Assembly (NCBI RefSeq): GCF_016428645.1
Contig: NZ_JAELXW010000076.1
Span: 1 to 48,481, forward strand
Source: Glycomyces salinus
Lineage (GTDB): Bacteria; Actinomycetota; Actinomycetes; Mycobacteriales; Micromonosporaceae
DNA: 48,481 nt
Direction: 5' to 3'
Below, one piece after another: positions 10,552 through 12,194 of the stretch (positions are counted from its first letter, which is position 1; each line of letters opens with the position of its first letter). Both the position numbers and the translations under genes were made by a program. The notes below the pieces were generated by a model. The model ran no database searches, was not told the origin of the DNA, and was given only the letters and a program-made list of their open reading frames with translations.

Positions 10552-11682
10552 ATGATGAGAAAAGCCCTGAAAGGGTCGCTGGCCGCCGCCGCGGGAATCG
10601 CGATCGGACTCGGAGCCGGCGGAACCGCTATGGCCCAGGACGACGAGATCCCCCCGGCAACCGGGCAGGTCGACTCCGAGCCCGGGATCCAATTCAACGA
10701 GATTCCCGAAGGCCACAGCCAGTTCGTCACCGCCCAGATGCTGAGTCTGAGCATCAACGGCGGCGACGACCGGACCGTCTACTGCATCCAGATCGACGTG
10801 GGCCTCGAGGGCCAACTAGACCACCAGGAGCGAGCCTGGGGCGACATCGACGTCGAGGACCTCCCTCTCGTCCTGGGCGTCCTGGTCAACGGCTACGACG
10901 GCTCCAACGCTGGGCACCTGATCGACGCCTCCGGCGCCGGTGACCACACCGAGGACCCGTACGGCGAGTTCAACGCCGACCAGGTGGCCTACGCCGCCAC
11001 CCAGGCCGCGATCTGGTCGCTGACCGACGGGTACGACATCGGCGAGGGCGACGTCTCGGTCGGCAACGAGGCGGTCGACACGTCCATCACGCTGATCCGC
11101 GACTACCTGCTCGACAACTCCGAGCCGATCGACGAGCCCCCCATGGTTCCCGAGGTCGAGGTCGACAACTCCGAGGCCGAACTCGACGGCTCTGTCGTCG
11201 GCCCCTTCACCATCAACACCAACTACGGCTCGATCGCCTTCCAGCAGCCCGAGGGCGCGACCGTCGTCGACGAGGACGGCGAGGAGGTCGGTGAGTTCAC
11301 CGACGGCCAGCAGGTCTGGATCGACTTCGGCGACAACGAGCCGTCCGACCTGACGATCAACACCGAGTCGGTCACCATCGTCACCCCCGCCGGCCGCGTC
11401 TTCGTCCCGGTCGACGCCGACTCCAGCGAAGTCGCCGGACAGAACCTCATCCTCGCCGAGGAGCACTCCGAGGAGGTCAGCGTCGAGGCTCCCTTCGAAC
11501 TGACCCTCGAGGACGTCCCCTCCGAGGAGACCCCGGCCCAGCCGCAGCTGCCGGAGACCGGTTCCGACCTGGCCCTCATCGGGGGCATCGGCGGAGCGGT
11601 CCTGGTCGCGGGCGTGCTCGCGATGGTGATGATGCGCCGTCGCCGCGCCTCGGCCGGTGGCGACTGGGGCGACGCGGCCTAG
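10552..11682 (+). CDS. Thioester-domain (TQXA) LPXTG cell-wall-anchored protein 2
   Basis: A 376-residue paralogue of the protein at 9003. It has a signal peptide ending near AMAQDD. The thioester pair is Cys78 in TVYCIQID and Gln151 in ATQAAIWSLTDG, so the glutamine sits at the same residue number as in its neighbour. A beta-rich domain (GPFTINTNYGSI) and an acidic segment follow, then LPETG near residue 333, a hydrophobic helix and an RRRR tail. The tandem pair implies duplication followed by divergence. Different leaders and promoters suggest separate control. The start is the first of two adjacent ATG codons; AAAGGGA is 9 nt upstream. The ligand is unknown. Confidence 0.93.
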   Translation: MMRKALKGSLAAAAGIAIGLGAGGTAMAQDDEIPPATGQVDSEPGIQFNEIPEGHSQFVTAQMLSLSINGGDDRTVYCIQIDVGLEGQLDHQERAWGDIDVEDLPLVLGVLVNGYDGSNAGHLIDASGAGDHTEDPYGEFNADQVAYAATQAAIWSLTDGYDIGEGDVSVGNEAVDTSITLIRDYLLDNSEPIDEPPMVPEVEVDNSEAELDGSVVGPFTINTNYGSIAFQQPEGATVVDEDGEEVGEFTDGQQVWIDFGDNEPSDLTINTESVTIVTPAGRVFVPVDADSSEVAGQNLILAEEHSEEVSVEAPFELTLEDVPSEETPAQPQLPETGSDLALIGGIGGAVLVAGVLAMVMMRRRRASAGGDWGDAA

Positions 11683-11712: not shown

Positions 11713-11747
11713 CCACACGCCCGCTGACTTCGTCGGCGGGCGTGTGG
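11713..11747 (+). terminator. Hairpin terminator after thioester protein 2
   Basis: Perfect 12-bp arms CCACACGCCCGC (11713-11724) and GCGGGCGTGTGG (11736-11747). No T-run follows; instead the next promoter box starts at once. Confidence 0.7.
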
Positions 11748-11753
11748 CATACT
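11748..11753 (+). promoter_or_regulatory. Leaderless-type -10 box of the aromatic leader peptide
   Basis: CATACT followed by TGCGGC (6 nt) and GTG at 11760. There is no Shine-Dalgarno sequence before this GTG, so a leaderless leader peptide is the likely reading. Confidence 0.45.
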
Positions 11754-11759
11754 TGCGGC

Positions 11760-11825
11760 GTGACTCAGAACGCGCGATTTTACTTTTACTACGGCACGGT
11801 CCGTCCGAGCCGTAGGTCGCGCTGA
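11760..11825 (+). CDS. Aromatic leader peptide (Phe/Tyr attenuator)
   Basis: A 21-codon ORF starting GTG and ending TGA at 11823-11825. Codons 7-11 (11778-11792) read Phe-Tyr-Phe-Tyr-Tyr, five aromatic residues in a row, followed by an Arg-rich tail. It lies 99 bp before chorismate mutase and 15 bp before an intrinsic terminator. A ribosome stalled for lack of charged tRNA-Phe or tRNA-Tyr on this run would change folding of the downstream RNA. This is the classical amino-acid attenuation layout. The control target (chorismate mutase, which leads to Phe and Tyr) fits the codon content. It is too short to be called by gene finders. Evidence is direct from sequence; the mechanism is inference. 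Confidence 0.8.
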   Translation: MTQNARFYFYYGTVRPSRRSR

Positions 11826-11838
11826 CTGCGAAACCTAC
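11812..11838 (+). promoter_or_regulatory. Pause/anti-antiterminator hairpin spanning the leader stop codon
   Basis: GTAGGT-CGC (11812-11820) pairs with GCG-AA-ACCTAC (11828-11838), placing the TGA in the loop. An alternative pairing, CGTCCG (11802-11807) with CGGGCG (11844-11849, allowing one G-U pair), would sequester the 5' arm of the terminator. That makes it a candidate antiterminator. Confidence 0.55.
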
Positions 11839-11840
11839 TG

Positions 11841-11869
11841 CCCCGGGCGAAGCGCCCGGGGTTTTCTCT
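11841..11869 (+). terminator. Attenuator terminator before chorismate mutase
   Basis: A perfect 9-bp stem CCCCGGGCG (11841-11849) / CGCCCGGGG (11853-11861) with a 3-nt loop, then TTTTCTCT. It is located between the leader peptide and the structural gene, not after a gene. Confidence 0.85.
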
Positions 11870-11924
11870 CGCTCAGGGCCCGAACCCGGACCAATGTTCC
11901 TGACATGCTGAAGGAGTAGCCCTG

Positions 11925-12194
11925 ATGTCCGCGACCACCGCCGAGCCGACCAGTACCGACGAGCTGTCGCAGCTGCGCGGCCGGATCGACGAACTCGACG
12001 CCGAGATCATCCGCCTGTGGCGCGAGCGCGCCCAGACCTCCAAGCGCATCGGCGAGATCCGCATGGCCAACGGCGGCACCCGCCTGGTGCTCGACCGCGA
12101 GCGCGCCATCCTCGACAAGTACCGAGACGCCCTCGGCGAGGACGGCACCCAGATCGCGATGCTAGTACTGCGATCGGGCCGCGGTCCCCTTTAG
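11925..12194 (+). CDS. Chorismate mutase, AroQ type
   Basis: An 89-residue all-helical chorismate mutase that converts chorismate to prephenate, the branch point to phenylalanine and tyrosine. It shows the AroQ pattern: LRGRIDELDAEIIRLWRER, then TSKRIGEIR, with the active-site Arg and Lys residues on helix 1 and around SKRIGEIR, and a later RERAILDKYR. The size matches single-domain actinobacterial enzymes such as Rv0948c, and the following pcrA and M23 peptidase genes repeat that M. tuberculosis order (Rv0948c-Rv0950c, from memory). The ATG at 11925 follows AAGGAG with about 8 nt spacing. Expression is probably controlled by the upstream Phe/Tyr attenuator. Confidence 0.93.
   Translation: MSATTAEPTSTDELSQLRGRIDELDAEIIRLWRERAQTSKRIGEIRMANGGTRLVLDRERAILDKYRDALGEDGTQIAMLVLRSGRGPL

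Follow-up and report, generated by a model that had tools for sequence, protein, structure and literature searches.

What controls the chorismate mutase gene of Glycomyces salinus, which follows a short reading frame crowded with phenylalanine and tyrosine codons? We analysed a window of 48,481 nucleotides, the whole stretch of DNA to which all positions below refer; the features described lie on its plus strand. Direct reading of the sequence revealed a leader ORF of 21 codons (MTQNARFYFYYGTVRPSRRSR, 11760..11825) with a GTG start and a TGA stop, whose codons 7 to 11 (TTT TAC TTT TAC TAC, 11778..11792) encode Phe-Tyr-Phe-Tyr-Tyr. Sequence comparison and folding models indicate that this leader and the RNA following it are very probably a ribosome-mediated transcription attenuator that senses Phe/Tyr before the chorismate mutase gene. 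A sequence-only reading of the window had listed the 21-codon ORF, a hairpin around its stop codon, a 9-bp stem with a T-run, an alternative helix and the hexamer CATACT 6 nt upstream, and all of them are present.

The downstream gene (11925..12194, ATG at 11925) encodes a protein of 89 aa and is preceded by the Shine-Dalgarno sequence AAGGAG (11911..11916). Its product, previously described as an aroQ-type chorismate mutase, exceeded the cut-offs of both NF005894 (99.6 bits; cut-off 73) and TIGR01808 (71.2; cut-off 52.15), which bears out that description. The best solved relative was Rv0948c (2qbv, E 3.8e-19, residues 7-89), and the C-terminal tail, GRGPL, fits the test for a GRG-L tail, which we take to be the defining mark of the actinobacterial AroQ (Rv0948c) type. 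By these profile and structure-relative matches, the gene under putative control belongs to the actinobacterial Rv0948c type of AroQ chorismate mutases. It was the sole CM_2 match found in its own genome, and chorismate mutase was present in 60/61 relatives, 142/150 genomes of the order and 29/98 genomes of the class.

The leader is preceded by a -10 promoter hexamer, CATACT (11748..11753), located 6 nt before the GTG and, across 22 genus genomes, identical to the window at 98% on average. A promoter scan returned no sigma-70-type pair before the leader; the -10 is clear and conserved and the -35 is weak. The transcript would start at or next to the GTG, and the leader mRNA would be leaderless. 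Such a start had been considered mechanistically unusual, a view that did not hold, as leaderless leaders have already been reported for actinobacteria, judging from titles in two reference lists: a leader peptide of C. glutamicum ilvBNC formed without a ribosome binding site (cited in PMC4046766), and mycobacterial leaderless short ORFs acting as cysteine attenuators (cited in PMC13236596). Further upstream on the same strand, an ORF ending at 11682 belongs to a surface-protein gene (10552-11682) that matches TQXA and LAVTG sortase-type domains below their cut-offs. A perfect 11-bp inverted repeat (CACACGCCCGC/GCGGGCGTGTG, 11714-11746) lies directly 5' of the -10 and overlaps the -35 and the spacer. 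The repeat region (11717-11747) had a mean identity of 81% to the window within the genus, and the repeat was absent by eye in other genera; the terminator of the surface-protein gene and an operator are both candidate readings of it.

The leader RNA can be drawn with five helical elements. Helix A (GCGCGA 11772-11777 with TCGCGC 11817-11822; span 11772..11822) is the outer part of the predicted protector in ribosome-free RNA, with 96.6% of alignment cells paired. Hairpin B (TACGGC 11790-11795 with GCCGTA 11809-11814; span 11790..11814) begins on the last Tyr codon and has inner CGG/CCG pairs (11797-11799/11805-11807). Helix C (GTAGGT 11812-11817 with ACCTAC 11833-11838; span 11812..11838) encloses the stop codon and is nested within helix D (CGTCCG 11802-11807 with CGGGCG 11844-11849, one G-U; span 11802..11849), the putative antiterminator arm that would take the 5' side of the terminator. 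Helix D was paired in 96.7% of cells, with ten cells changed on both sides, all at one pair. The predicted intrinsic terminator T (11841..11869) consists of a perfect stem, CCCCGGGCG (11841-11849) and CGCCCGGGG (11853-11861), followed by the T-run TTTTCTCT (11862-11869); the terminator scan counted 10 pairs including a G-U at 11840/11862, and 55 bases separate the end of the T-run from the chorismate mutase ATG. The RNA at 11760-11866 folds at -51.3 kcal/mol (z = -4.5), and the free RNA is predicted to adopt A and B, then T. Helices A and B, absent from the sequence-only reading, complete the predicted switch.

We propose that such a switch would operate as follows. Ribosomes would load on the leaderless end of the transcript. 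With Phe and Tyr plentiful, the ribosome would reach the TGA and cover the 5' arm of helix C, D would not form, the terminator would fold, and RNA polymerase would stop short of the chorismate mutase gene. Under a shortage of Phe- or Tyr-tRNA, the ribosome would halt on the last Phe-Tyr-Tyr codons (11784..11792), which folding with a placed ribosome predicts to be the sensing codons, and would cover the 5' arm of hairpin B; with B blocked, the CGTCCG and GTAGGT strands would be freed, D and C would form and take the 5' arm of the terminator, and read-through would follow. Without a ribosome, A and B would hold both strands, giving termination by default. The 5' end, the stalling, the read-through and the relative weight of Phe and Tyr in this scheme are what we infer.

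To follow the fold as a function of ribosome position, the RNA 3' of the ribosome was folded codon by codon, ending at the 5' arm of the terminator, and the upstream pairing probability of that arm was recorded. Only the leaders that passed a perfect-stem terminator test were folded (100 of the 124 leaders that satisfied the strict criterion given below); the 24 that failed include all 13 of family f8 (Mycobacterium-like). In 95 genomes aligned on Tyr-Gly, with a footprint of 11 nt, the pairing probability was 0.52-0.53 with the A site at codons -7 to -3, and reached 0.77 at -2 (Phe in 87/95), 0.79 at -1 (Tyr/Phe in 87/95) and 0.69 at the Tyr. Beyond the Tyr it was 0.56 at the Gly, then 0.38, 0.29 and 0.23, and 0.35-0.37 further on. 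Varying the footprint from 9 to 13 nt left the peak between codons -3 and 0. When leaders were instead aligned on their last aromatic codon (100 genomes, 15 families), the profile was similar, with a ribosome-free value of 0.40, and the peak moved by at most one codon either way for footprints of 8-14 nt. When the intervening sequence was shuffled, the value on the Tyr of Tyr-Gly was 0.57, compared to 0.69 for the real sequence, and on the last aromatic codon real leaders gave 0.66 compared to 0.58 for composition-matched shuffles. The gain over composition is small in this model, and stronger evidence comes from the profile's shape.

The same calculation in the 22 genus genomes gave 0.74 on the three codons, 0.20 for the naked RNA and 0.10-0.36 from the second codon past the cluster. 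In the Glycomyces window, the arm paired upstream at 0.76 with the ribosome on the last three codons and at 0.47-0.50 on the first two; the naked RNA gave 0.16 and a ribosome at the stop 0.15. The modelled RNA thus favours the antiterminator with the ribosome on the control codons and the terminator with the ribosome at the stop. These results are consistent with the earlier suggestion that the helix 11802-11807/11844-11849 blocks the terminator, since the two behaved as antiterminator and terminator in folding. Of the Phe-Tyr-Phe-Tyr-Tyr cluster, which is 98% conserved, only the last three codons lie in the predicted stalling window; the first two fall outside it.

To assess how widely the leader accompanies chorismate mutase, we examined 160 genomes with upstream DNA, picked to span the families and genera seen. 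The strict criterion, fixed in the script, demanded an ORF 8-35 codons long in the 420 nt upstream, a stretch of 6 codons with three or more Phe/Tyr, and a -10-like hexamer 4-9 nt 5' of the start. A strict leader was found upstream of the chorismate mutase ortholog in 124/160 genomes (51/51 in family f1, that of the window), counts that represent non-independent events because the genomes share ancestry; first-order shuffles of the same upstream regions satisfied the criterion in 5/1600 cases. One genome with just 64 nt upstream (G237) is among the 160 and was scored negative. The hexamer-to-start spacing was 6 or 7 nt in 120/124 leaders, and a scan of both strands of the 48-kb window found the criterion satisfied at one further place. 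When 45 f8 genomes were added, 127/205 passed the strict criterion, 141/205 a relaxed one and 148/205 either (relaxed-only control, 17/1025).

Of the 57 genomes failing both criteria, 48 belong to f8. The family and genus labels are themselves inferred, f8 corresponding to Mycobacteriaceae, its genera g23 and g118 to Mycobacterium-like and Corynebacterium-like organisms, and f31 to Streptomyces-like organisms. Within f8, all 13 g23 genomes examined carry the leader before chorismate mutase, while the small-genome genus g118 has it in 0/4 examined, the gene itself looking leaderless there. Most f8 genera except g23 are without the leader (L264, L274, L282, L283 and many other f8 loci), and at several leader-less f8 loci the gene starts a few bases past a -10-like box, as read by eye. 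The leader of a Pseudonocardiaceae MAG (L084) reads MLNRRRFFYGYRIPVPVEA.

An alignment of the upstream regions of relatives had been set beforehand as a refuting test, and in it the aromatic codons and the alternative stems proved conserved. Mean identity to the window in the 22 genus genomes was 98% for the five aromatic codons, 98% for the -10 and 91% for the terminator hairpin, compared to 59% for the first 60 bases of the chorismate mutase match; the spacer (11870-11907) reached 62%. The aromatic codons and the stems can be followed across the order and into some further families of the class. Of 30 family loci, 25 have pcrA as a downstream gene of the same orientation, one has it upstream in divergent orientation, one has it upstream in the same orientation, and 3 do not have it within 1.5 kb; the leader is kept in 30/30 despite these changes. 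At L004, one extra base shifts the leader frame, which then ends earlier (RPKP*), at helix C, so that the stop position shows natural variation.

A leader so well conserved could owe its conservation to the peptide, that is, it could encode a conserved small peptide or a nascent-chain arrest peptide sensing a signal other than tRNA, with hairpins that are only a terminator. The core RF(F/Y)YG(Y/N/H)R is indeed strikingly conserved in many families, beyond the strict need of a codon sensor, and the last Tyr is almost always followed by Gly, Tyr-Gly occurring in 117/124 leaders. However, this constancy is accounted for by the RNA, because TAYGG is the 5' arm of hairpin B: a hairpin starting with TAYGG was present in 109/117 Tyr-Gly leaders, compared to 250/2340 shuffles. 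Moreover, the frame of the C-terminal half differs between genera although the bases are unchanged; the block GCCGTAGGTCGCGC reads SRRSR* in Glycomyces and AVGRA* in other genera of the family, and a peptide end that varies over constant bases points to selection on the RNA. The aromatic block also varies in the manner of codons (FYFYY, FYGYY, FYGY, FFYY, FFYG, FVFTYG). We therefore regard a peptide function as improbable.

Traces of covariation were also seen. Across families, hairpin B carries compensatory pairs, the third exchanging C-G for T-A, the sixth occurring as C-G, G-C or T-A, and more such exchanges lying inside. In the family alignment of 35 leaders, 97.1% of cells were paired in the protector plus terminator fold (slid partners 32-43%) and 95.9% in the antiterminator fold (slid partners 28-45%). 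Both-sided changes occurred at 4 and 2 pairs, respectively; 49/500 shuffles reached the antiterminator count, partners slid by +1 surpassed it with 4 pairs, and the protector/terminator fold slid by -1 had 12 both-sided cells, equal to the true register. The covariation scores of both folds were higher than those of all slid versions and all 500 shuffles. The alignment thus points to a mutually exclusive antiterminator, whose signal stands out less clearly from shuffles than from slid partners. Within the family, covariation is modest, and most of the apparent support comes from comparison between families.

Two further explanations leave the predicted fold in place and change what it does. 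The element might merely terminate or insulate the surface-protein gene upstream, its ORF having arisen by chance, and chorismate mutase might be expressed from its own promoter; the end of the same-strand upstream ORF at 11682 would suit this, and the spacer at 11870-11907 could hold a promoter. Against it, the element accompanies chorismate mutase where the neighbours differ, that spacer is far less conserved than the -10 before the leader (62% vs 98%), and the ORF exceeds chance expectation, as the 5/1600 shuffles indicate, which makes this explanation very unlikely. We give equally little credence to a stalled ribosome that acts on translation of chorismate mutase, through masking of the Shine-Dalgarno sequence, or through Rho, and not on an intrinsic terminator. 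The f8 leaders do fail the strict intrinsic-terminator test, and the available text of PMC13236596 places the cysteine genes of M. smegmatis under translation attenuation, but a perfect stem with a T-rich tail stands between leader and gene in the window and in 100/124 genomes. Attenuation at an intrinsic terminator, as proposed above, accordingly remains by far the favoured explanation for the element.

To search for the element at other genes, an RNA model built on the 35 family leaders was run on 148 class genomes without a protein query and returned 27 matches at E up to 0.01. Among the best 18 matches outside f1, 6 lay before chorismate mutase (three by eye only), 10 before a TIGR01361 DAHP synthase and 2 (L307, L318) before neither; all 10 DAHP-synthase matches were also found at TIGR01361 loci. 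TIGR01361 was over its cut-off in 63 genomes, and 30 loci were fetched. A leaderless aromatic leader was present at 17/30 (f29 9/9, f28 4/6, f39 3/4, f52 1/1), while the loci of f20, f23 and f25 had it in 0/10, including L347, which has only 238 nt upstream and was scored negative. L338 and L346, scanned with corrected offsets, showed no leader. Loci with an aromatic leader before DAHP synthase in f28, f29, f39 and f52 are L305, L306, L308-L315, L322-L325, L329-L331, L333, L335, L336, L339, L342-L345, L349 and L350. In these DAHP-synthase leaders, the ribosome-free fold often sequesters the terminator arm already (0.20-0.99), which counts against a uniform default-off state.

The DAHP-synthase leaders also differ in codon content. 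Trp was present in 15/17 of them, for example in MQRNFWRFYGYRP, MRTAFWFWYGDG and MTRWFGYFTGSG. Under equal criteria counting Phe/Tyr/Trp, Trp-bearing leaders made up 15/17 at DAHP synthase compared to 8/129 at chorismate mutase, and 11/13 compared to 6/127 when Phe/Tyr only were counted, in a comparison across related genomes from which shared ancestry was not factored out. The presence of Trp in DAHP-synthase leaders and in few chorismate mutase leaders suggests that the codons may match the products of the controlled enzyme. This leads to a broader reading whose chances we consider about even: one ancient, retargetable attenuator family of Actinomycetes, which sits on the control-point enzyme of each lineage and in which a constant scaffold serves target genes and codon sets that change in step. 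The scaffold would comprise the leaderless start, the hairpin on the last Tyr codon, the antiterminator and the CCCCGGGC terminator, with Phe/Tyr codons for chorismate mutase, which makes Phe and Tyr, and Phe/Tyr/Trp codons for DAHP synthase, which feeds all three. The two sets of leaders may share descent or may have converged.

The searches at two further targets were negative. No strict leader was found at 30 loci from 41 genomes of the class II DAHP synthase (PF01474, the Glycomyces type), two of them with only 460 and 173 nt upstream, and 25 prephenate dehydratase loci (PF00800) from 26 genomes had no such leader, one unrelated-looking ORF being seen in L242. The shorter flanks at L208, L212, L231 and L233 (460, 173, 120 and 1399 nt) were scanned and contained no leader. 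A pattern search of the Glycomyces genome for a second copy with up to 3 mismatches returned only 11772-11794 itself. An RNA-model match in the same genome (C168:115184-115248, E 0.0059) proved on reading to be a terminator-like hairpin lacking an aromatic leader and was rejected. No Rfam family matched at its gathering threshold, and three sub-threshold matches to unrelated families were taken as chance.

The closest known system appears to be aroR-aroF of Corynebacterium glutamicum, where aroR was reportedly described as the attenuator of aroF by Neshat et al. in 2014. In E. coli, pheL-pheA and pheST combine a Phe-codon leader peptide, alternative hairpins and an intrinsic terminator with a Shine-Dalgarno-led leader, and pheA carries a chorismate mutase domain. 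The Glycomyces element resembles these E. coli attenuators in its Phe codons, alternative hairpins and intrinsic terminator and differs in its predicted leaderless start. With aroR-aroF it shares a short actinobacterial Phe-Tyr-Phe leader peptide, an aromatic amino acid gene and, on the present predictions, a ribosome-mediated mode of action and a leaderless start, but the target here is chorismate mutase instead of DAHP synthase; the comparison with aroR is by published description. No chorismate mutase leader was seen in the four g118 genomes examined, which are Corynebacterium-like by inference.

According to the available text of two papers, C. glutamicum aroF (DAHP synthase) has a Phe-Tyr-Phe leader (PMC11802643, PMC4046766), called aroR in the former, a review that also mentions the E. 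coli pheL-pheA and pheST attenuators. In the same portion of that review, aroR responds to Phe limitation and not to Tyr availability, and C. glutamicum chorismate mutase works in a complex with AroG whose formation Phe inhibits (PMC11802643). Within the phylum, Seliverstov et al. 2005 (PMC1262725) described trp, ilvB, leuA and cys leaders with end-product codons, which the present leader resembles in carrying such codons in a leader peptide upstream of amino acid genes; the text available from that study states that Actinobacteria showed no conserved RNA structures ahead of their Phe and Tyr operons. Putative tyrA attenuators of other bacteria are given in the accessible part of PMC1173090.

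The word "chorismate" does not occur in the main text, as available, of PMC13236596, PMC9094748 and PMC4633059, and no description of a chorismate mutase leader in Actinobacteria was found in the literature searched, although an earlier listing in supplements or subscription papers is possible. The claim that mixed Phe/Tyr leaders were undescribed stands within this literature for actinobacterial chorismate mutase and falls for the type as such, Phe-Tyr-Phe being known before C. glutamicum aroF. The kind of attenuator is thus known, and what appears new is how deeply it is conserved on chorismate mutase and how the codon set seems to follow the target.

These results suggest that in many actinobacteria, Mycobacterium-like and probable Streptomyces lineages among them, the Phe/Tyr branch gains a candidate transcriptional control that an earlier survey did not see. 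The control would be placed on an enzyme which, in the C. glutamicum work summarized in the available text of PMC11802643, is complexed with DAHP synthase in feedback control. The codons of a leader seem to tell which products its enzyme feeds, and such leaders could allow control points of the aromatic pathway to be annotated on the basis of sequence only.
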